Positions 1-15,121 of a DNA stretch of 20,336 bases are shown here, piece after piece. The notes under the pieces were generated by a model. It was not told where the DNA came from, searched no databases, and saw nothing but the letters and a program-made list of their open reading frames with translations. The position numbers and the translations under genes are program-made. The DNA comes from a virus: positions 37,403 through 57,738 of IMG/VR virus record IMGVR_UViG_3300002514_000032. One strand, 5' to 3'. Position 1 is the stretch's first letter; the number at the start of each line of letters is the position of its first letter.

Positions 1-3000
1 GCACTAATATATGTATTTGGTCCTGGAGGTGTGTTAGCGTTAAATATGCATTGTTGCCATCCCGATGGGTCACATTCCCAGGTACACCAATCTTCACAAT
101 CCTGAAGACTAGTAAAGGGACCCGGGTACAATGGGTCACCTGGTGGGATAGGGAAACACCCTCCAGGATTACTAGGGTCTGTAGAACAATTTTGTAAAGT
201 ATCACAATAATAGGTCATCGCACTTATTCCACAACAATCCAAAGATGGGAATAGTGACATACAATCATTATAGGAAGCAAATGGAAATAGTGGGTTAAAT
301 ATTCCCGCTGGTACTGGGGGGAATGTTGGGTAGGGTGGTGCTATAGTATTTGTGTTTGTGTTATTTAACCAATCTTGTTGTACAACACATCCGGTTTCAT
401 CAATAGTCATAGGGTCGTTATCCAAATCACCACAATAACAACTTGCCATACACTCTGATTCACAAGTACTCGACGTATAACAATTTTGTGCAGTTTGTGC
501 AGCTAAACTAGCCGGTGCAATACATGGTATACCACTAACAATAAGTGAATTCTCACATCCGTCCACAGTACATTCATAGGTGGACGCGGTTACATTGCCC
601 AAACAGGTTTGACATCCTAAAGGTGGTAGTCCTGGTGTTTTAAGACATTTTTCCCAACAATTTGGTGTTCCGTTAGGAGCAAATGGGTCACCGCCAGGAA
701 TACCGGTATTAGTTGGGTCATTACAATCATAAAAACCAAAATTAAAAGGACACGTACAAATATAACAACATAATGGGTCTGAAGGGTCTGCCCAAGAAAC
801 AACATCGTCTTGTTGGTAGTTTGTGTACATACTGTCCCAGGTACCCATATCATTTAAAACTGCAGAAGTAATACCTGAACATGCACACTCACACCCCGCT
901 TCCTCACATGTTCCACTTGGGTGTGTCAACAGACAATCTTGCATGGTACAATAGGGTAAGCCAGGATTTGCTATAACGGGATTATAGGTATAACAAAAGG
1001 AGCCCATATTAAATGGGTCATACACACAAGGGTAATTACCTAGTGGTGGTAAGGGGTTGGACGCGTTTGGTCCTGGATTAATGGTGGGGTCATCTTCACA
1101 ATATACATTACAACAGGAACTACCGGAACAACATTCCTCAACAGTATTATAGATACCGCCTGGACTAGGATACCATCCTTGCCAATTTTGGAAGAACGTG
1201 TCCGCGGATGCACAATAACCGATACTAACTAAGGTACCACTACCATCATCCTCCAACCAGCAATCCCAACCACCTGTACAATCACAATACGGAGTACAAG
1301 CTGTTTCAGTTGGGTAAGTTCCCAGTGCTGGATTAGGACCATATAGTCCTAGAGGATTTGTACCTGCTGATATGGTAGGACAACATGTGAGTTGTACACA
1401 GGGGCAGCCGGGTTCGTCTGTTCTACAGGACCAACACATTTCACAATCCGTACACGCAGAAAGACAGGCATTTAGGGTACTATAATTACCACAACCAAAA
1501 CCATTATAGCATGGTTCGCATGGTGTAGTTCCTGGTGCCGGCGGATTTCCTACTGGGTATTGAATTGGGATAAGTGGGTCTATACAGTTATATCCACATA
1601 CTGCGGTATAAGGTGCGGTTAGTGCAAAACCATAAGAATAAGCTCCAGTAGAAGCACTGTATTCACATTCTGCTAGTGTCATAGTTTGTCCTGGTGTTAG
1701 TACACATCCTTGGTCACATGTCCAGAAATAACCAGTAGTGTCACAACAACCAGATTCACAATCAATTCCTGTAAAGTATGGGCTTGTCCATAAGTCAAAA
1801 TTATTAGCAATCCAGGTTGGTGTATTAGGGAGTGGCGATGGTGGTACTAAACTATATATATTAGTCATTATGTTAGTATAACTACCTGGGTCAGTCTGGG
1901 AGGTACCCGCAGCCCAATCCATAGCACAAGATATTTCGGTACAACATTGGGCACCGGTAGGGGTGGTACAGGACCACGCCATAGGGTCACACTGTACAGT
2001 ACAACCTGTCTGAGAATCAAATAATACTCCATTACCTATAGGCCCTAAAGTAAAATAAAGTGGGTCGGTGTAGTCTATTTCGGTACACCCACTACAACCA
2101 CTTAAACAGTACCAAGCTGTGTCTGCAGAACATTCACCACCATTATAAGAATATATACATCCTTGATTACCACCATAAAATGTAAAACTATTAGGTGTTT
2201 GGCCGGAAATCATCTCACAAATTAATGGTCCTGGATTTCCTAAATCTGGAGGGCATATCCAACTTACACAACCTATATAATCCCAACTAGATGAATTTGT
2301 TAATGCGGTAGGTGGTGGTGCTGGGGCTGCCATATCCACTAGAGCTTGGAAACAGTCTCCATTTGGCCCCTCAACAAATTGACCTACATAATAATCGTTT
2401 CCAGGTATATATGTACCCCCAAACATAGGTTGGGGTCCTGCTGAGGTAGGAAATAATATCGGGGTTGGGAATTGTAGGGACACATCATTACATGGTGTTT
2501 GGGTTCCTGGTGGACACGCTACACAATCTGGTGAACAGGCTTCCCAAATATGTACATCACTACCACCAGATTGGTTTTGCCAAATCCCTGAAGATAATAA
2601 TGTAGCGGGTGGCCACCCAGCCCATGGGTCTGGTGTTGTACTTGTTTGGTCTATGGAATGCACCGCCATAAAACAACAACATGTATTATATGTTTCATCA
2701 TATACAATATCCCCAACAGCATAATCTACAAATTGACTCCACACTCCTTGATTTATATTAAAAGCTATTGGTGTTGGTGTGAAAGTTACTCTATCCACAT
2801 ATTCGTCCTTTGTTTCACACCAAGCACAGTCTTCGTCGGGACATGGTGCACATTGAGCACCACCAAACATACTTGGGTCAATACCACAACTCGTAGCTAC
2901 AAAAATAGTAATACCATTAGTGAAATCATAAAAATCTATTGGGGTGTTATTAAGTCCTGTAGATGTGACAGTGTAACCCGTATATGTAGGTGTAGCAGCA

Positions 3001-4232
3001 AATATCTGTCCCTGCATACCTTGTTGTATCGACCCATCAATAGGGTCTATAACATCACCACCTATAGGCACCCACACCCCTAATACAAAACCACCTGCTA
3101 AATCGGGGGATGTAACCGTAGAACTATATGTTTGAAAAGTTCCTAATATACTTTCAGACACACCACTGAATTCAAAACAAGGTGTTGGTGAATTTGCACT
3201 ATACGCATTAATGTCTATCCCTGAGTCTAATGGTCCCCAATCTTGGAGTCCACCTGGAGAAGTTGTATACATCAAAGCACCGGAAGGGTCCAATACTTGG
3301 ACGGGTGCAGGTGGATACGCTACCTGTAAAGCAGCAAAAGATAAGGCTGGAGTTGTAATAACCTTAGTTGTTTTCATCTTTCCCCAAGGAGTGTCTTGGG
3401 TTAGAATAATTTTTCTTTGCATTGGTGGTGTTGCTGGGTATGTAAAGTTTGCTGTAAGATTAGGAAATTGTAAGGTTTGACACCCTCCACCACCAAAACA
3501 TATTGGGTCATTACAGTCACAACCATACCAACTTATAATAAAAGGAGAATCTTGTAATGTTTTATAATATCCAAAATCAGTAGTGTTAGTTATTCTTATA
3601 TCTAACCCAGTACTTGTCATTGAAGAAAATACAAAATTATTAAAAATGTCTTTTTGTTCTACATTACCGTCCCACATAGAATAGTGACCTATATCATTAA
3701 AATCTTGGTCAAGGAAAATTGTTAGTTGGTTTGTGTGTTCGTCTAAATAATTAATGCAGTTACATGGAGGCCCATAATTCGCCGTTAAATTAATAGCTAC
3801 TTGATTGTGTAGGGGTATACGTATGTCGGAATTGGTAATTTGGTAAATATCAATTATTTCATTGTAACTACCTGTTGTGACTGTACTGGCGGAGGTTGAT
3901 TTTAACCCCATGAATAACATATAAAGATGCCCGTCTAAACTTAAACATTCGGTAAGACCGGTGATGGTGGGGTCTATATAAATTGTATCCCATAATATAA
4001 TACACGGATTAGTAATCGAACAATCTCTAAGTTCTTGTGGGAAAGTACTCATGTCACCACTCAAAGCTTGGTCTACCATACTATAGGTGGAGTTGTACAT
4101 AGTTATACCTGAACAGTCATAACTAGTGTTTATAGGCCAGTAATTAGTACCACCACTACAGGGAATACTCCCGTATGTTGGTGTGAGTCCAGATGATGGA
4201 GGTCTTTTTAATCTTATTTTTTGTATTTCCAT
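1..4232 (-). CDS. Giant Cys-rich repeat virion protein, probable tail adhesin/fibre (partial, 3' end outside window)
   Basis: The frame is open from the ATG at 4232 (Met-Glu-Ile-Gln-Lys) to the window edge with no stop, giving at least 1410 residues. The start lies 3 nt after the preceding stop. Residues 1 to about 430 are an ordinary, Cys-poor beta-type sequence rich in Thr, Ser, Asn and Gly. From about residue 430 onward the chain is extremely rich in Cys, Pro and Gly, with roughly 93 Cys in the last 980 visible residues. Two short motifs recur: Trp-x-Cys (WTC, WSC twice, WYC, WIC, WEC, WDC) and Gly-x-[Tyr/Phe]-x-[Thr/Ser]-x3-Cys-x3-Cys. At least three segments resemble CBM5/12 chitin-binding modules. 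There is no signal peptide. I do not recognise the whole protein. Its position at the end of a baseplate cluster, its size and its carbohydrate-binding look suggest a host-recognition fibre or adhesin; this is inference. Confidence 0.8.
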   Translation of the reverse strand, partial: MEIQKIRLKRPPSSGLTPTYGSIPCSGGTNYWPINTSYDCSGITMYNSTYSMVDQALSGDMSTFPQELRDCSITNPCIILWDTIYIDPTITGLTECLSLDGHLYMLFMGLKSTSASTVTTGSYNEIIDIYQITNSDIRIPLHNQVAINLTANYGPPCNCINYLDEHTNQLTIFLDQDFNDIGHYSMWDGNVEQKDIFNNFVFSSMTSTGLDIRITNTTDFGYYKTLQDSPFIISWYGCDCNDPICFGGGGCQTLQFPNLTANFTYPATPPMQRKIILTQDTPWGKMKTTKVITTPALSFAALQVAYPPAPVQVLDPSGALMYTTSPGGLQDWGPLDSGIDINAYSANSPTPCFEFSGVSESILGTFQTYSSTVTSPDLAGGFVLGVWVPIGGDVIDPIDGSIQQGMQGQIFAATPTYTGYTVTSTGLNNTPIDFYDFTNGITIFVATSCGIDPSMFGGAQCAPCPDEDCAWCETKDEYVDRVTFTPTPIAFNINQGVWSQFVDYAVGDIVYDETYNTCCCFMAVHSIDQTSTTPDPWAGWPPATLLSSGIWQNQSGGSDVHIWEACSPDCVACPPGTQTPCNDVSLQFPTPILFPTSAGPQPMFGGTYIPGNDYYVGQFVEGPNGDCFQALVDMAAPAPPPTALTNSSSWDYIGCVSWICPPDLGNPGPLICEMISGQTPNSFTFYGGNQGCIYSYNGGECSADTAWYCLSGCSGCTEIDYTDPLYFTLGPIGNGVLFDSQTGCTVQCDPMAWSCTTPTGAQCCTEISCAMDWAAGTSQTDPGSYTNIMTNIYSLVPPSPLPNTPTWIANNFDLWTSPYFTGIDCESGCCDTTGYFWTCDQGCVLTPGQTMTLAECEYSASTGAYSYGFALTAPYTAVCGYNCIDPLIPIQYPVGNPPAPGTTPCEPCYNGFGCGNYSTLNACLSACTDCEMCWSCRTDEPGCPCVQLTCCPTISAGTNPLGLYGPNPALGTYPTETACTPYCDCTGGWDCWLEDDGSGTLVSIGYCASADTFFQNWQGWYPSPGGIYNTVEECCSGSSCCNVYCEDDPTINPGPNASNPLPPLGNYPCVYDPFNMGSFCYTYNPVIANPGLPYCTMQDCLLTHPSGTCEEAGCECACSGITSAVLNDMGTWDSMYTNYQQDDVVSWADPSDPLCCYICTCPFNFGFYDCNDPTNTGIPGGDPFAPNGTPNCWEKCLKTPGLPPLGCQTCLGNVTASTYECTVDGCENSLIVSGIPCIAPASLAAQTAQNCYTSSTCESECMASCYCGDLDNDPMTIDETGCVVQQDWLNNTNTNTIAPPYPTFPPVPAGIFNPLFPFASYNDCMSLFPSLDCCGISAMTYYCDTLQNCSTDPSNPGGCFPIPPGDPLYPGPFTSLQDCEDWCTWECDPSGWQQCIFNANTPPGPNTYIS
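72..2261 (-). repeat. Degenerate Cys-rich protein repeats (W-x-C and G-x-Y-x-T-x3-C motifs)
   Basis: These repeats are seen at the protein level inside the giant gene. Trp-x-Cys codons lie at about 2253-2261, 2106-2114, 1968-1976, 1716-1724, 1425-1433, 1260-1268 and 72-80. The partner motif Gly-x-Tyr/Phe-x-Thr/Ser-x3-Cys lies at about 1452-1490 (GNYSTLNACLSAC), 1284-1322 (GTYPTETACTPYC), around 1125-1160 (GIYNTVEECC) and 84-122 (GPFTSLQDCEDWC). Pro/Gly-rich loops of variable length separate them, so the repeats are not visible at the DNA level. I read this as a chain of small Cys-stabilised modules, bonded either by disulfides or by metal; the sequence does not say which. Confidence 0.6.
750..845 (-). 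other. Possible CBM5/12-like module 3 (short) in the giant protein
   Basis: A Gly-Thr-Trp-Asp-x-Met-Tyr-x-Asn-Tyr-x2-Asp-Asp-Val-Val segment is followed by Cys-Cys-Tyr-x-Cys-x-Cys. It mirrors the Trp...Tyr-x2-GD-x-V...CysCys pattern of the first module but lacks an obvious closing Trp loop. It may be a truncated or strongly diverged copy. Confidence 0.3.
2268..2405 (-). other. CBM5/12-like module 2 in the giant protein
   Basis: Residues about 610-655 of the giant protein follow the same plan: a Pro-Gly-Asn-Asp-Tyr-Tyr start, Val-Gly-Gln-Phe-Val, a Gly-Asp-Cys-Phe-Gln-Ala strand, a Pro-rich loop and a closing Ser-Trp-Asp-Tyr. The Gly-Asp-x-Val core is replaced by Gly-Gln-Phe-Val. The Cys-Phe-Gln-Ala strand parallels the Cys-Phe-Met-Ala strand of module 1, which supports duplication of the same domain. 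Confidence 0.4.
2580..2741 (-). other. CBM5/12-like (chitin-binding type) module 1 in the giant protein
   Basis: Residues about 498-551 of the giant protein read Trp-x5-Tyr-x-Val-Gly-Asp-Ile-Val-Tyr, then a CysCysCys-Phe-x-Ala strand, a Pro-containing loop and closing aromatic Trp residues (DPWAGW, then GIWQNQ). The order W...Y-x2-GD-x-V...aromatic/Cys...P...W is typical of CBM5/12 and related modules, which bind chitin or other beta-glycans through exposed aromatic residues. The match is by eye, and the triple Cys is not usual for the family. Confidence 0.45.
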
Positions 4233-5123: not shown

Positions 5124-6909
5124 CGATAAATGTTGATAATATATTTATGGTCTCAGCCGTGTAATTGTGTAAAATTGGTTCTATAATAAATTCTAAATTA
5201 TGATGCGGATAATGAGCGTCATTTAGGTAGGGATAACTTACACCATTAACTTCATCATCATAAAATTCTATTGGTAATATCGGTCTCCATCTAAATGTGT
5301 TGTCAACTAAAGAATAAACACTGTATTGTGGTGATGTAAATAGTGAATCATTATGTCTTATACTGTTTGATAGTTTTTTTATAGGTATCCTATTATGTGG
5401 ACGATATTTGTATATAGACTTTATAAATTCTGGTGCACTTGCGGTACCCACCTCATATATAACATTTTTATTAAATTTTAAAGAGTATCCAAGTTCCGAA
5501 ATTATACGTTCTTTTAACTCTAATAAGTTATATTCCACAAAAGCTCCCCTAAAGGTACTACCACTAGCTGGTAGAGGGGAAACACCACTTGTGGTATTTT
5601 GTAAAACATTAGATGGGTTAGTATCGTTATCTACAAATGGGTCTATCACCCCTATTTTTCTAAAATTCCAATCCCAACCATACCCTGCTGGTGAACCCGC
5701 ACCGTTATAATGCCACATTAAATTTCTATTAGTGGGAAAAATACTTAAATATAAATCTGTTAATGGTCTATTATGGTTATCATAGTAACTATCAACATCA
5801 ATATCTAGGGTACATACCCAGGTATAGGATTTAAATTCCTCTAATATAGTTGTTGTGCCAGGATAGGTTGCTGGTGTTTTTTTCGCTTTAAAAACTCTAC
5901 CTTTTTTATTATACACACCAACCTCAAAACCTGTCCTATCAAGGGTGTAATCATTAGGTTGTGTTATCAATTTATGTTGATGACAATAATAATTGGACCT
6001 ACTTTCTGTAAGATTATCAGGATTGATTATTCTTTTTAGTGTTCCTACTGGATTGTTTACTATGGATGTTGGGTTTAGACCAACTGTATTAATATTTATA
6101 ACGTATTCCTCACTATTAGCAAACTCATTACCTAATGAGTCTACTTTAAATAAATTTTGTTGGGTTGTCCAAGTCCCCGATGGTATTGTATATGTTAAAC
6201 TAATCTCAAACATTAAATTAGCGTTTCCTTGTGTGGTGGGTGTTGGTTGTAATTCAATATATTCTCCTGGTGATACACCATGTGGTACTGGAGTAGTAAA
6301 TCGAACGGTCTCTCTTCCCGCGTCATCTATAAGTGTTTCAACAGTAAATGGAATTCCGTCCGACGCAATAAAATCCATATATGAAGGTGTACTATATTCA
6401 GTATAAAACTGCATTGGTTCATCGTCATTTGAGTGGCTAATGTAGGACATATATAGTATCCAATTATCCGTATATGCCGAGAACACACTGTATGTAGATG
6501 ATGCTGCATTATCACCGTATATTGTGGGGGGTATAAAATCAAATGTCATCGCAGGTGGCATTCCTACACATGGAGGTCCTGCGGAGGGGTTGGTTGGGTA
6601 CGCTACTGGGTCTGGACATCCTAGGTAATCGGGTTTAAAATACATATAACCCAAAAAATTACTGTCTGAAGTTTCTCCCGATATGACATTATTGTATAGT
6701 ATGTCTATCTTACCATACATTCTATAGGTTGTACAATAGTCTCGTTCAAAGTCAAATTGGTCCGCTAGATTTAAAACTAAATTTCTATCTCCTTGTATTA
6801 AAGTCCTTTCATCGGAACTTAATAATGGTTGTAAACTAATATCTTTATTAACTGAACCAGCGAATTTAGAAACACCTCTTACTATTCTTATGTTTTTTTC
6901 GTTACTCAT
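5110..6909 (-). CDS. Unknown structural/baseplate-module protein (599 aa)
   Basis: I do not recognise this protein. The sequence is rich in Tyr, Asn, Thr, Pro and Asp with strand-like stretches throughout, as in large phage tail proteins, and has few Cys and no signal or membrane segment. The N-terminus is basic (SNEKNIRIVRGVSK), and the C-terminal 100 residues are rich in Tyr, His and Pro. Its ATG overlaps the stop of the 1161-aa gene as TAATG (positions 6907-6911), so translation is probably coupled. It overlaps the next gene by 14 nt. Position after gp25, gp6 and the 1161-aa protein suggests a baseplate wedge or fibre-attachment part. Function is inferred from context only. Confidence 0.82.
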   Translation of the reverse strand: MSNEKNIRIVRGVSKFAGSVNKDISLQPLLSSDERTLIQGDRNLVLNLADQFDFERDYCTTYRMYGKIDILYNNVISGETSDSNFLGYMYFKPDYLGCPDPVAYPTNPSAGPPCVGMPPAMTFDFIPPTIYGDNAASSTYSVFSAYTDNWILYMSYISHSNDDEPMQFYTEYSTPSYMDFIASDGIPFTVETLIDDAGRETVRFTTPVPHGVSPGEYIELQPTPTTQGNANLMFEISLTYTIPSGTWTTQQNLFKVDSLGNEFANSEEYVININTVGLNPTSIVNNPVGTLKRIINPDNLTESRSNYYCHQHKLITQPNDYTLDRTGFEVGVYNKKGRVFKAKKTPATYPGTTTILEEFKSYTWVCTLDIDVDSYYDNHNRPLTDLYLSIFPTNRNLMWHYNGAGSPAGYGWDWNFRKIGVIDPFVDNDTNPSNVLQNTTSGVSPLPASGSTFRGAFVEYNLLELKERIISELGYSLKFNKNVIYEVGTASAPEFIKSIYKYRPHNRIPIKKLSNSIRHNDSLFTSPQYSVYSLVDNTFRWRPILPIEFYDDEVNGVSYPYLNDAHYPHHNLEFIIEPILHNYTAETINILSTFIDDCE

Positions 6910-9900
6910 TACACTACAGTATCAGCTAATTCTTCATCCACATATAACCTCAAGAATATATTATAAGCGGTTTTACCGGGTCTTAACCCGAAATAATAAA
7001 ATAATGGTTGTGAAAATACGGTAGTACTTAAACTGTTTTGGTCTAGGGTTGGATAATTTCCTGGGTGTAATAATCCACTCCCCGGAGAAGTTGTTAGTGA
7101 GTTCCCCATATCATGTTGAAATTCACCGCTTAGTATTTGTCCGTTAGCAAATAGTCCGTCTATTGGTCCCCCACCACCATCCGAGTCAACAAACCAACCA
7201 GACGGTGCGATACCTGTACCTGTTTGGTATCTCCCTTGGGTCAAGCTCCAATCGTTATATTCACTACCCCATGGTACTCCTGGTGCTCCTTGCATATTCC
7301 ATAGATAATAAGGAATCTCTTGGGTGGAAGCTGATAAGTCTAATGTGGTACACTCTATTAGTTCGTAACCGGTCATCATACTCGCTGTAGCTGAGGTAAA
7401 TATAAATGGGGTCCATCCTATATGGTAAGAAGGGTCTATAGCGTTCACCGCGTTAGGGACGATAATACCGGTAACATTCTCGTCATTAGTTGGTGGGTAT
7501 GTTAATCCTGAAGTTACCTGAGTTGTAACTGGGGCGACACAATCACATTGGCTCATCCCCATAGTTGCTTCATACCCATAAACTCCTAACATACAATTTT
7601 GCATCAAGGCCTGTGCAACATCTCCACCTATTTCTTTATGGGGTCTAGGAAACATAGTAGCAATAACAGCCATCTCTCTATCCATTTTCATATTATATAT
7701 ATCGGAAACTAATTCGGTAATATCTTGAAATGTTGTACTTCCTATTTGGTCTGTAACCGCACATTCTTCTGCAAATTGTGGGTCTAAACATACTTGTTGT
7801 ATACATTGGTTTCGTGACCCCATGTCTGTGATTGTGGTAGGCCAATATATATGTCTCTCCATATCACCATCTGCGTGGTCTGGATTGGTTACTCCACCGC
7901 TACCCCCCCAAAAACTACTACTCCACCAGGGAGCGTAAATACCTTCATCGTCACCAATGAATGTTCCTGTATTAATCGTATTAACTTTAAATGGGGTGCT
8001 TCTATAATAAAACACATTTTCGGTTGGGTGGAGGTATACACATTTTTTACACCATTGGGAGTCAGTGGTGTAGTCATCATTTGAAACATTGTATCTTAGT
8101 TTTGCGTTGAATTGGAATGGGTATAGGAACCCTGTAACCCAATTGTTTTCCCATATGTAATTCATTACTCCGTTACATAGAGCTTGGGACATTTTTTCGC
8201 GTCTTCCCCATTCATGGAACACTTTCATAGACATGTTGGTACCTACACATACTGGGTTAATACATATAATTTTTACGTAACAGCCTCCACCTGCAGCATC
8301 ATCCATATTTCCTGCAACACCGTCATCATTAAACCCATATGAATCATCACAACAAATTTCCACATCATCTGTTTCACCACAACATATATGCCCATTCCAA
8401 ACCCCTAACCCTAACCAAGTACCACTACCATTACAGTTAGGTATACAACCACACGGGTTACCATTCCATGATGACTGTGAAGCTGCAGGCATTCCGTCAC
8501 ATGGCCAATTAGTTGCCAATGTCAGTAAATCACCACTTGCTGTACTTCTACAATTACATTTTTCACACTCAGGATATTTGGTTTGTTTCAAATTAAATAA
8601 CACGAATCCCATTGGGAGTCCTAAATATTCGCATTCAGCCCCACAACCATTACAACTTATACAAAATTGCCCACACCCCAATCCTATTATCCACGGTAGT
8701 AATAGGTTATTAGATATAATCCAGTTTGGAAAGCTGTTTAGGAGTGAATTTAATGCACACAATAACAAACAAATCAACATAATAACCATTATGACTATAA
8801 ACATTATCATACCTAATATAAAAGCTATTGCGGCTACTAGCATTGAGAGGAACCCATATAAGAAACTCATAAGACTAATGAACATACTATAAAGGATAAT
8901 CCAAAAATTATTATTTCTTACAGCACTATTAACTGGGAAAAACATTGCTGATGTAGCACATTGTTGTGCTTGTTCTGGTAATATTTCTTTTATACCTATG
9001 AATTGTCTTCTTCCCCAATGTTTTACATGGTCATGATGTTGAGCTGGTGAATACACCCTATTAAATGTCATGTCATAGAAAAAATCTCTTGCTCCGGGTA
9101 TTAAATTAAGTTGTGCATATGGATGGTAATCATGATATTCTATAGAAAAAGTATAACTAGCCGCCTGTGCAGTACTCCATTGACCACTATTATTTGTGTT
9201 AAATTCTCTAAGATTAGGGACTAGGAAGGACCCTATCCTTCTTAGTCTTGAGCTTCCTCCCGCTTGTTCTGGTCTAATTCTAAATCTACATCTTGCTCGT
9301 GTAGGTACACCAACATTAGGGCTATCCGACATTACTAAATTACCAAACTCATCAGTAATTAAATAATCTAAATTCATCGGAATATGTGTTAAAAAAGCTC
9401 CCGTATCGTCTATTACCCTTCCTCCGTTTGGTAAATAATACCTTTCTAGTACTGGAACTGTTCCTCCAACTCCATTATAAGCTACTGGGTCTTCTTTAAA
9501 AAATGGGGTATATCTTATACAATCTACTATTCCTGGTATGGATATAAGACTACATAACTCACCCATATGTTTTTTAGGTCTACAATTAAGATTTACAGAA
9601 TCTTTATCGGTATCAGTAGCGGTACTCCCCATAAAAACCGCTGTAGGTTCTAGCTTAAATCCAGAATTTGCTAAATCAAAATCAACTCTAGTTATAGCTC
9701 CTTGACATATATCTTCGTCCCCCCAAAATGGTTTTACGTCTATAGATTTTTGTTGATTTAATATTTGTGCTAAAGCGTCTATCGCGTCATCGTCTTTAAA
9801 TCTAGGCCCGTCAAAATCTGATTCTGGGTATCCTTTTTGTTTAAAATCTTCTGGTAACATAGAAAAACACCCCATATCACTTAAATCTACGTCCATTATT

Positions 9901-10394
9901 ATGGTTTGAACCCCTGTTGGGATTCCGTAAATCATAAAGTCTCCTGCCTCGTTAGTTTTAGCTGTAAACTTATAGTACTTTTCAAAAACATATCTCACCT
10001 CTTGTTGTTGTAATACAGAAGCCGATGTGGGGAATGTGCCTACCGGTATATGACAGTCGTGATTAGATTCTGAAGATAGTAGGTTGAATCTTTTACCGTC
10101 TCCATCCTTATCAAAAGATTGTTTGTAGGGATAAAGTTCACTTATTACTTCATTATTTGCGTCAATTTCATCTAGTGGGATGAATATACATACTTTTGCA
10201 TTAGGTATCCCATACCCACCATTAGCGAACACCCTTCCAACCACAACACCAAAATCTGCACACATTCTCGTGTAAACATCTTGTTGTGTTAATGATAGAC
10301 TTAATATTTCTAATAAATCAAAATCTTGTTTTAATTCAAAAGTTACATTTTTGTCTTTACCTACTTCTGTCCTTACTCTATATGATTTAGACAT
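6909..10394 (-). CDS. Large baseplate-module protein with prealbumin-like domain, hydrophobic hairpin and Cys-rich domain (1161 aa)
   Basis: Residues about 45-175 look like a prealbumin-like/carboxypeptidase-regulatory beta domain (GVVVGRVFANGG..., then TNEAGDFMIYGIP). Residues about 180-490 are globular. Residues 497-549 are almost wholly hydrophobic (for example LVAAIAFILGMIMFIVIM), enough for two membrane helices, and a shorter apolar stretch follows at 557-573. Residues 574-716 hold 19 Cys, including CNGCGAEC, CEKCNC, CGCIPNC and two CC pairs. The C-terminal half is Gly/Trp/Tyr-rich and ends in an FYYFGLRPGKTAYN segment. There is no signal peptide. It follows gp6 and is close in size and place to T4 gp7 (1032 aa), but I see no decisive gp7 motif. 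A membrane-like segment inside a presumed baseplate protein is unusual. The start lies after the 113-nt gap. Confidence 0.82.
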   Translation of the reverse strand: MSKSYRVRTEVGKDKNVTFELKQDFDLLEILSLSLTQQDVYTRMCADFGVVVGRVFANGGYGIPNAKVCIFIPLDEIDANNEVISELYPYKQSFDKDGDGKRFNLLSSESNHDCHIPVGTFPTSASVLQQQEVRYVFEKYYKFTAKTNEAGDFMIYGIPTGVQTIIMDVDLSDMGCFSMLPEDFKQKGYPESDFDGPRFKDDDAIDALAQILNQQKSIDVKPFWGDEDICQGAITRVDFDLANSGFKLEPTAVFMGSTATDTDKDSVNLNCRPKKHMGELCSLISIPGIVDCIRYTPFFKEDPVAYNGVGGTVPVLERYYLPNGGRVIDDTGAFLTHIPMNLDYLITDEFGNLVMSDSPNVGVPTRARCRFRIRPEQAGGSSRLRRIGSFLVPNLREFNTNNSGQWSTAQAASYTFSIEYHDYHPYAQLNLIPGARDFFYDMTFNRVYSPAQHHDHVKHWGRRQFIGIKEILPEQAQQCATSAMFFPVNSAVRNNNFWIILYSMFISLMSFLYGFLSMLVAAIAFILGMIMFIVIMVIMLICLLLCALNSLLNSFPNWIISNNLLLPWIIGLGCGQFCISCNGCGAECEYLGLPMGFVLFNLKQTKYPECEKCNCRSTASGDLLTLATNWPCDGMPAASQSSWNGNPCGCIPNCNGSGTWLGLGVWNGHICCGETDDVEICCDDSYGFNDDGVAGNMDDAAGGGCYVKIICINPVCVGTNMSMKVFHEWGRREKMSQALCNGVMNYIWENNWVTGFLYPFQFNAKLRYNVSNDDYTTDSQWCKKCVYLHPTENVFYYRSTPFKVNTINTGTFIGDDEGIYAPWWSSSFWGGSGGVTNPDHADGDMERHIYWPTTITDMGSRNQCIQQVCLDPQFAEECAVTDQIGSTTFQDITELVSDIYNMKMDREMAVIATMFPRPHKEIGGDVAQALMQNCMLGVYGYEATMGMSQCDCVAPVTTQVTSGLTYPPTNDENVTGIIVPNAVNAIDPSYHIGWTPFIFTSATASMMTGYELIECTTLDLSASTQEIPYYLWNMQGAPGVPWGSEYNDWSLTQGRYQTGTGIAPSGWFVDSDGGGGPIDGLFANGQILSGEFQHDMGNSLTTSPGSGLLHPGNYPTLDQNSLSTTVFSQPLFYYFGLRPGKTAYNIFLRLYVDEELADTVV
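8748..8906 (-). other. Hydrophobic transmembrane-like segment inside the 1161-aa protein
   Basis: Codons 497-549 encode about 53 mostly Leu/Ile/Met/Phe/Val/Ala residues with no charged residue, starting at FWIILYSMF and ending at LLCALNSLL. A polar Asn/Ser/Pro turn and another apolar stretch (codons 557-573) follow, and then the Cys-rich domain. The length fits two membrane helices or one hairpin. A buried hydrophobic core helix bundle is the alternative. Confidence 0.7.
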
Positions 10395-13058: not shown

Positions 13059-13218
13059 TTTTCACCTCCTTTATTTTTTCTGTGTGTGTACAATATGGAC
13101 ACGTTATCACCTCAGATACATTATTAGACAATAAATGGTAGTCAGCAATTGACCACCATTTATTACATTTACCACAATTAAAGTGGTATAAAATCTCCTT
13201 ACTGAATTTATGCCTCAT
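13045..13218 (-). CDS. Zinc-ribbon miniprotein (57 aa)
   Basis: A short frame starts at ATG 13218, within the end of the ribonucleotide reductase gene (11-nt overlap), and stops with TGA at 13045-13047 inside the start of the DUF5522-like gene (14-nt overlap). The product has two Cys knuckles, C15-G-K-C18 and C40-P-Y-C43, 21 residues apart, with aromatic and hydrophobic residues between (NKWWSIADYHLL), the layout of a zinc ribbon. The C-terminus is Lys-rich (KIKEVKNDKK). The overlaps on both sides and the conserved four-Cys design support a real gene. Translation is probably coupled to the reductase gene. Function is unknown; such ribbons often mediate nucleic-acid or protein contacts. Confidence 0.75.
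   Translation of the reverse strand: MRHKFSKEILYHFNCGKCNKWWSIADYHLLSNNVSEVITCPYCTHTEKIKEVKNDKK
13062..13071 (-). promoter_or_regulatory. Strong Shine-Dalgarno site for the DUF5522-like gene
   Basis: The minus strand reads AAGGAGGTGA, with the GGAGG core 6 nt upstream of the ATG at 13058. It lies within the last codons of the upstream zinc-ribbon gene. No other start in the window has a comparable site, which makes this one stand out. Confidence 0.8.
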
Positions 13219-15121
13219 TTAATTCAGTTTCTTCTTTTTCCTTCTCCATACTCTTTAAATCTACATCAATTTCACAAACCCCACCAGCACACGCTAGTTC
13301 TCCTGAAAGATTGGTATTGTCGTCCAATTCCACTACTTTAGACAAATCGACTTCCGATAAAGAACCCATCATTCTTTCGTATGTTTCTTCATCAATATCT
13401 TCAAAAGGAGCTTGGATGTATGTTCCTCCGTCATAAGGTAGTACCGATAAACCATTATAGTGTTTTCTATTTTCCCACATCCATTCACCCGCTGCGTCCC
13501 ATTCATGGTCTCTCAAACTAATTGTTGCAGACACATTATGTGAATTAGAACCTTTTCTGTGACCAGATTTTACCCATTCTGTTGCAACTTTTTTAACTCG
13601 TTCTAATAACTGAAATGGAGATTCTGTTCTCATTATTGACCCTTCTGGTGCTTTTTGTGGTATACTTATCACTGCGGTATCGTGTGGTCGGAAATACTCA
13701 TCTTCCACTAATTCTGGGTGATTAATATTTAAGTAGGTGTAAATAGCTTCATTTTTACCAACTCTAATTCTTCTAATGTAGTAATCATTATGCCAAGCGT
13801 GAATGCCTGAACTTGTACCTAATGTTAAGGAAGTTGTCCCAGCTGGTTTAACTGTCGTACATCTTGCTGATTGGTTTATATCTATTAGTTTTGATACTCT
13901 GGTATTTTCTCTCTTAACTAAACTAGCGGATTTTGACATGTCATAATCTAATACTTTACCTGAACCAATACCAGTCATTGATACCCCAATTAAAGCGTCT
14001 TTCTCTGTTGTTTCTTGCCATATTTCTCTTAGATAGTGGAAGTCTGTATAACCCGCTTGGAGTGTGCCGATAAACGCAGCTGTTTTTACTCTTTGATTTA
14101 AGTCTTCTTGTGATTCTATATTTGAAACATTTACCTCACATAGATTACAAAATTGATTTGGTCTTAGTGCAATCTCACAACATGGGTTAGTGCCCCAATC
14201 TTTATCATTATTAAGATAAATTCCTGGTTCACCAGCACCAGATAACTCCACACGTTTCCATAAATCCATAAAGAATTCTTTTGTTATTTTATGTCTCATT
14301 AAACATGCTGAATTATTTGCTCTCCCTCTTTGTGAGTTTAGTTCCCACCAATTTCCAGTTTTACAAGATATCATTTGTTCGTCGTCCGCACTAAATAAAC
14401 TAATTAATGCTGCTCTTCTAATTCCACCAGCTAATACAGCATCTGCTATATAACAAACTATATCATGTACTTCTAGTGTTGTTAGTTGTTCACCATTTTC
14501 TTTACTATCTAATGTTCCTTTGATTTTAACCAAACATTCTTTAAGTGGTTGAGGTCCTGGAGCTTTTCCACCCGATGTTACAAGACGTGCTCCTTTTGCT
14601 CTAATATCCGAAAAGTCAAATTCAATTCTTGACCCTCCACCATTCATATATGATTTCATTAGAACTTTTATAGAGTCTGCCCATCCTTCAATAGAATCTC
14701 CAATTAAAAATCTTTTTTTCCTTTTTGGGTATGGTTTTTGAATTACTGGTAGTTTTTCTACGTGGTGTTTTTGAACGGAGTATCCAACTCCTGTTCCACC
14801 TAAAAGTAAAAACATTGTTTCGGAAAATGAATCCACGTGTTCTATTGGTAGGTACGCACAATTATAAATTCTATTTGGTGATATTTCAATTGGTTTACCA
14901 CCAAATTGCATTGACCTCATTGATGGTAATACTTTTTTCTGGTATACAAATTCATATTTTTCGTTTATTTCGTCCTTTAGTTGGGGATATTTTTTAATAT
15001 GCATATTCTTATTCCGTGTAACTAATTCTTCCCATGTCTCTCTTCTATTTAATTCGGGTAGGTATTTAGCATATTTCATATACACGGTGATATCCGAAAG
15101 GATTCTGTTTGATACTTCCAT
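13208..15121 (-). CDS. nrdJ: Adenosylcobalamin-dependent (class II) ribonucleotide reductase, compact monomeric form (637 aa)
   Basis: Reduces ribonucleotides to deoxyribonucleotides for phage DNA synthesis, using coenzyme B12 to make the active-site thiyl radical, so no radical-bearing small subunit gene is needed. Key residues are visible. N312-P-C314-C-E316 matches the Asn-x-Cys-x-Glu active site, with C314 as thiyl Cys. The redox pair is C88 (RIYNCAY) and C325 (NQFCNLCEV). The C314-C325 spacing of 11 equals that of C408-C419 in Lactobacillus leichmannii RTPR. PAGTTSLTLGTSSGIH lies at 426-441. A C-terminal CAGGVC (C611/C616) is the swinging dithiol. It is about 100 residues shorter than the 739-aa L. 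leichmannii enzyme. It lies between the helicase and two small Cys-rich genes. No cobalamin riboswitch is seen in the short leader. Confidence 0.93.
   Translation of the reverse strand: MEVSNRILSDITVYMKYAKYLPELNRRETWEELVTRNKNMHIKKYPQLKDEINEKYEFVYQKKVLPSMRSMQFGGKPIEISPNRIYNCAYLPIEHVDSFSETMFLLLGGTGVGYSVQKHHVEKLPVIQKPYPKRKKRFLIGDSIEGWADSIKVLMKSYMNGGGSRIEFDFSDIRAKGARLVTSGGKAPGPQPLKECLVKIKGTLDSKENGEQLTTLEVHDIVCYIADAVLAGGIRRAALISLFSADDEQMISCKTGNWWELNSQRGRANNSACLMRHKITKEFFMDLWKRVELSGAGEPGIYLNNDKDWGTNPCCEIALRPNQFCNLCEVNVSNIESQEDLNQRVKTAAFIGTLQAGYTDFHYLREIWQETTEKDALIGVSMTGIGSGKVLDYDMSKSASLVKRENTRVSKLIDINQSARCTTVKPAGTTSLTLGTSSGIHAWHNDYYIRRIRVGKNEAIYTYLNINHPELVEDEYFRPHDTAVISIPQKAPEGSIMRTESPFQLLERVKKVATEWVKSGHRKGSNSHNVSATISLRDHEWDAAGEWMWENRKHYNGLSVLPYDGGTYIQAPFEDIDEETYERMMGSLSEVDLSKVVELDDNTNLSGELACAGGVCEIDVDLKSMEKEKEETELNEA

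Follow-up and report, generated by a model that had tools for sequence, protein, structure and literature searches.

Agrobacterium phage Milano has a heavily disulfide-bonded virion, and its particles are less robust in the presence of DTT, as described in the accessible portions of two papers (PMC10491603, PMC10811340). The bonds described in those portions join subunits of the capsid, neck, collar, sheath, and baseplate, and no giant Cys-repeat protein is reported there. The phage that we describe here resembles Milano in its high Cys content and in what are most likely abundant disulfides in a tailed virion. Two cultured relatives, Flavobacterium phage immuto and Microcystis phage Mel-JY01, have gp25 and gp6 homologues in the same order (26-29% identity in gp6) but are without a homologue of the giant protein reported below. 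Closer to that protein is A0A6J5L9U6, a PKD domain-containing protein from an uncultured Caudovirales, which together with homologues at three loci in our set (L050, L198, and L199) has the same core and gene position; these proteins differ in being only 358-365 aa long, in having 0 Cys, and in keeping a C-terminal module attached.

We analyzed a window of 20,336 bases, the final part of a viral record of 57,738 bases that is probably from a marine phage. An earlier note, made from the letters of the window, had pointed to a giant, tail-associated protein with about 93 Cys in roughly 980 residues. The count is exactly 93 in 976 aa (residues 435-1410, window 3-2930), and the seven W-x-C units it named are likewise exactly seven in these residues. 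We have now obtained the rest of the gene, which extends outside the window and is three times as long as the stretch first noted: the complete gene occupies record 32740-41634 on the minus strand, ends in a stop codon, and encodes 2964 aa with 243 Cys (8.2%) and just 2% Lys plus Arg. The note had called the Cys density exceptional, and indeed the mean among the remaining tail-module proteins on the contig is 1.5%. Translation starts at an ATG at window 4232 and the frame exits across the left window edge, continuing to record 32740. The features that lie within the window are these:

Window 1..4232, minus strand: 5' part of the giant Cys-rich tail gene (residues 1-1410), a single open frame with purifying selection and homologues.
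Window 2892..3755, minus strand: putative ancestral core, residues ~160-447 (~290 aa), also present in Cys-free homologues of 358-365 aa; profile E-values of 1e-22 to 1e-31 in Cys-poor homologues.
Window 3345..3635, minus strand: predicted PKD-like beta-sandwich in the core, residues ~200-296, from Pfam matches in homologues and a beta-rich AlphaFold model.
Window 2535..2741, minus strand: CBM5/12-like module, residues 498-566, with the pattern W..Y..GD.V....CCCF...W..C, from the motif and a weak alignment.
Window 1110..1724, minus strand: residues 837-1041, degenerate, long-looped units of the W-x-C...G-x-Y-x-T-x3-C type, recognized by the motif and by weak profile matches that score about as shuffled protein does.
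Window 645..839, minus strand: second CBM5/12-like module, residues 1132-1196, holding the covarying Cys pair 1161/1192, from the motif and covariation.
Window 1..206, minus strand: a pair of neighboring repeat units at residues 1343-1383 and 1384-1421 (the second cut by the window edge), with profile i-Evalues of 0.019 and 2.5e-5.

The reading that we favor, with a probability of about 60%, is that the giant protein of this phage, whose hosts are probably Flavobacteriales, carries a disulfide-stabilized, extracellular adhesin array made of host-type surface modules.

The giant gene lies among tail and baseplate genes. Pfam identifies a gp25 and a Baseplate_J/gp6-type protein adjoining it, and the gene order, which is kept in related records, is gp25, gp6, and proteins of 1161, 599, and 295 aa, followed by the giant protein, a small module, a protein of 304 aa, and one of ~1070 aa. 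By these neighbors (gp25 and gp6 wedge genes, with terminase in the group), the gene belongs to the tail/baseplate module of a tailed, myovirus-type phage. The group's larger records reach 317 kb, and those that were tested encode a terminase. We infer that the giant protein belongs to the virion's tail in a large uncultured tailed phage. Elsewhere in the window, Pfam matches include a fragment of a class II (B12-dependent type) ribonucleotide reductase (13208-15121), a DnaB-like helicase, a 5'-3' exonuclease, and an FKBP; a RecA-like protein in the UvsX position has a weak Pfam match and is 44% identical to the recombinase of phage immuto.

Several neighboring genes have features of their own. 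The conserved 1161-aa protein after gp6 (window 6909-10394, minus strand) contains a very hydrophobic stretch of ~55 residues (~8739-8909) followed by a Cys-rich part, with 41 Cys in all (3.5%); it is unusual for a baseplate region and possibly interacts with membranes. One copy of the W-x-C repeat closes a second tail protein, of 1262 aa (L002:4690-4767, minus strand; record ~24,690-24,770; YSCFNGECFASDDGIYSDIEVCKEAC), and a short tail-region protein with 12 Cys in 259 aa (L003:17896-18675, minus strand) contains a dockerin type I/EF-hand pair (Pfam 1.4e-5). In some relatives, a gene of ~190-220 aa with a nucleotidyltransferase-like look lies between the giant gene and the gene for the small C-terminal module (L185:15932-16573, L193:12771-13406), and we place such a gene in the gaps at L190 and L191 as well.

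The giant gene is conserved in a large phage group that is known from metagenomes only. A profile of the N-terminal part retrieved a whole series of homologues of differing length and Cys content, and a scan with the 1161-aa neighbor yielded 80 loci, dozens of which have giant Cys-rich proteins in the equivalent place. Proteins in the clade of the window have 2440-2991 aa and 181-255 Cys. Other forms consist of two adjacent ORFs of ~1020 and ~1070 aa with 62-66 Cys apiece, of a single protein of 1139-1156 aa with 50-53 Cys, or of an ORF of 421-567 aa followed by a Cys-rich ORF of 842-851 aa; the shortest form has 358-397 aa and 0-5 Cys. Common to every size class is the core at residues ~160-447, whose best match in BFVD is a phage PKD protein of 364 aa (E 7e-16). 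This core contains a predicted PKD-like domain that is recognizable in several homologues: the best Pfam values are 8e-6 for PKD_4 (PF18911) and 4e-5 for PKD (PF00801), each found in six of 50 aligned homologues, the window's copy itself giving none. Fold searches agree, with PKD and FnIII among the Foldseek matches of the core model, all at E > 1e-3. The whole giant protein had no match in Pfam, PHROGs, NCBIfam, the PDB, or 50,697 phage records.

The two ends of the protein bear on how the array arose. The Cys-free form has a conserved C-terminal end (...NVFVERGK..YERVQRLGEV...NYGYGFF...). In sister phages, core and C-terminal module are fused in one gene of ~360 aa without Cys, in intermediate clades the C-terminal stretch closes the second Cys-rich ORF, and in the window phage and its closest relatives it is a separate gene of 73-78 aa directly after the giant gene. 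The Cys-rich array therefore sits between two ends that elsewhere form one gene, consistent with insertion and later splitting. In an independent tree of gp6, all Cys-rich types form one clade (support 1.0) that is sister to a Cys-poor clade. The likely direction of change, judged from these comparisons, is the gain of the Cys-rich array.

Profile searches define the repeat unit as [GT][FYW][WY]xC-x(n)-C-x-C-x(~10)-G-x-[YF]-x-[ST]-x3-C-x(~5)-CC. Eleven units fall below E 0.01 in the giant protein, nearly all of them past the left edge of the window, with clean tandem units at residues 1781-2319 and 2796-2892. The W-x-C motif occurs 15 times in the whole protein (shuffle mean 6.2, maximum 14 in 2000), and G-x-[YF]-x-[ST]-x3-C occurs 10 times (0.66 expected by shuffling, maximum 5 in 1000). 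The repeats had originally been located at window positions 1-2940; the units there are degenerate and long-looped, and the regular ones lie mostly elsewhere. Within residues 435-1410, the sole unit well over shuffled protein is 1384-1421, which reached 1.8e-6 in a further profile search. AlphaFold predicts a beta-hairpin and a helix in many units at low confidence (pLDDT 57, pTM 0.25), and distances between Cys can therefore not be read from the model.

The repeat had also been called undescribed. This holds for domain databases, since it has no significant match to known Cys-rich domain families in Pfam, NCBIfam, PHROGs, or the PDB, and we found no paper in the open-licence full-text literature describing such a phage protein. 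It is not unknown to biology, however, because T9SS-secreted proteins of Flavobacteriales carry the module. Several candidate likenesses were set aside: a single PDB fold match to the model of the repeat stretch, judged to be chance; the 'cysteine-rich repeats' of rusticalin (PMC6339383, PMC7379824), which are eukaryotic and differ in spacing; a roizmanbacterial 'cysteine-rich' protein, an unrelated secreted protein; and a Kunitz-like look (a hairpin, then an x-[ST]-x3-C-x3-C helix), a visual likeness unsupported by profile or fold search.

In T9SS-secreted repeat proteins of marine Flavobacteriales (AH-229-A09, L245; the G038 protein in L289; L298), the unit W-x-C-x(n)-C-x(n)-G-x-Y-x-[ST]-x3-C-x3-C is the same as in the phage. 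Profiles built from phage units only match Flavobacteriales proteins (rep3, E 4.6e-5, at L249; A7, E 9.5e-5 and 9.9e-4), and with these phage-only profiles the Cys spacing of the secreted repeats is found together with G-x-Y-x-[ST]-x3-C. The L289 protein has eight near-identical tandem SWDCDGQGNCxDPGNGTGQYNSLAACQTxCVVP units after CTDP repeats and a Peptidase_M43 domain. All four bacterial carriers scanned with Pfam and NCBIfam end in a T9SS sorting domain, whereas neither database matches anything in the phage protein. Bacterial arrays consist of a few near-identical 4-Cys units followed by the sorting domain; the phage array, in contrast, has more diverse units of 4 to 6 Cys, stands behind a tail core, and lacks the sorting domain. 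A partial match of LDL-A to the bacterial repeats was weak, covered only part of the profile, and was judged spurious.

A mixed profile that counts three units from two bacterial genomes among its members gives matches in 56 of 396 Flavobacteriales genomes, compared with none of 241 genomes of Hymenobacter's order and one of 245 genomes of the phylum of a Neomarinimicrobiota genome. Given this distribution and its occurrence in T9SS-secreted proteins, the repeat is an extracellular module of (mostly small-genome) Flavobacteriales, the most likely hosts. A second repeat points the same way: arrays in the sister clade are built of GCTDPxAxNYNPxAxxDDGSCxY repeats (L153:17518-20046, L162:16044-19463, L142:19283-22474), which are common in Flavobacteriales secreted proteins. 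In a search of 84,980 species genomes with GCTDPxAxNY...DDGSC, 67 of the best 80 loci were titled Bacteroidota, and this repeat is shared between Flavobacteriales secreted proteins and the sister phages. Judging from the shared repeats and a distant cultured relative, the hosts are probably marine Flavobacteriales, and the common repeat suggests that the phage sticks to its host by host-type surface modules.

The array contains a further kind of module, which recurs at residues 498, 1132, ~1700, and 2707. It resembles CBM5/12 (PF02839) in its W..Y..GD.V motif and closing W, to which PDB chains also align weakly, but it differs in having extra Cys after the GD.V strand. Its scores stay under the curated Pfam cut-off, with a best E of 0.012 and a match in three of 26 modules.

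In the mechanism that we propose, the conserved part of the protein is the N-terminal ~450 residues with their PKD-like core, which probably anchor it at the baseplate. Over the other ~2500 residues, small modules would follow one another in an array, disulfides closing each of them: W-x-C units, CBM5/12-like modules, and spacers. The chain would be made in the reducing cytoplasm and would most likely acquire its disulfides once lysis has released it into oxygenated water; the array, now locked, would stand out from the tail and hold on to the host surface by many weak contacts with glycans or proteins. We infer the baseplate attachment, the timing of oxidation, and the multivalent binding to the envelope, while covariation supports the disulfide pairing.

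The strongest rival is a pure spacer role, in which the array would be a long, protease-resistant, disulfide-hardened stalk or sleeve and other tail proteins would do the binding. It would suit the large variation in length (2440-2991 aa) and the low identity between most members (34-43%) with Cys positions kept, as well as the presence of further large tail proteins downstream. We think it unlikely, though worth serious consideration, given the resemblance of modules to sugar-binding CBM5/12, albeit below the Pfam cut-off, and the kinds of repeat held in common with secreted multidomain proteins of the host.

The earlier note had left two options for the Cys, disulfides or metal-binding modules, and the first is the one that the data favor. 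When 11 non-redundant proteins, complete or nearly so, are aligned (34-75% identity), the share of aligned cells in which a residue is kept is highest for Cys (91%), followed by Trp (53%), Pro (52%), and Gly (52%); the Cys value is somewhat inflated because the alignment program itself favors matching Cys. Across 18 non-redundant sequences, 122 Cys columns are invariant. For 23 of the variable columns, another column no more than 60 residues away gains or loses its Cys in the same sequences (permutation mean 7.4, maximum 19 of 5000); the covarying pairs, such as 238/240, 681/703, 902/929, 1161/1192, 1386/1402, and 1829/1870, are 2-41 residues apart within one chain. A chain of modules holding Zn, Cu, or Fe in Cys clusters would fit the very high Cys density and synthesis in a cytoplasm that is reducing. 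We nonetheless regard it as improbable: CxxC is not enriched in the giant protein (22, compared with 20 in shuffles), His makes up ~1% with no enrichment of Cys-His clusters, Cys mostly vary in twos, and the repeat is carried by proteins that the T9SS exports from the cell. Given the pairwise variation, the low His content, and the unenriched CxxC, the 243 Cys most likely form disulfide bonds. At least one Cys must be free or interchain where the total is odd, as it is in about half of the family. A search for a phage-encoded oxidase of the Erv/ALR kind gave no match, its positive control being equally silent, and glutaredoxin (L003:4276-4647) was rejected as an explanation since Cys-rich and Cys-free phages alike have it.

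Disulfides might also serve as a redox latch of the kind proposed for Milano, locking the baseplate until reduction at the host surface releases it. The Milano work gives the precedent of a disulfide-locked sheath and baseplate (PMC10811340), and the 1161-aa neighbor is Cys-enriched too. We hold this idea to be about as improbable as metal binding, since the Milano bonds described there are largely between subunits while the covarying pairs here close within one chain, and since most of the remaining baseplate-region proteins have few Cys. An assembly or frame artefact is very unlikely, to the point of being negligible, because the frame is unbroken in 12 further copies (11 complete, of 2440-2991 aa, and one exiting its contig) and substitutions relative to the closest relative (75% identity) are strongly synonymous, with dN/dS of 0.09-0.27 over the whole gene and 0.17 over residues 435-1410.

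What is new here is a phage tail protein, by our reading an adhesin, with a disulfide-repeat architecture common to secreted proteins of its probable hosts. A bolder and distinctly tentative version is that this phage clade amassed an adhesin of ~2500 residues from disulfide-locked modules like those on its hosts' T9SS-secreted surface proteins, made it in the cytoplasm to be oxidized only after lysis, and docks with it on the same ligands or on the host's own repeats. The findings suggest that disulfide chemistry has evolved as a lineage-wide trait of a single tail protein in a group of large uncultured phages, and they connect modules of phage tails with surface modules that bacteria secrete by the type IX system. 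The repeat also offers a sequence handle for host assignment and receptor work in phages of marine Bacteroidota.
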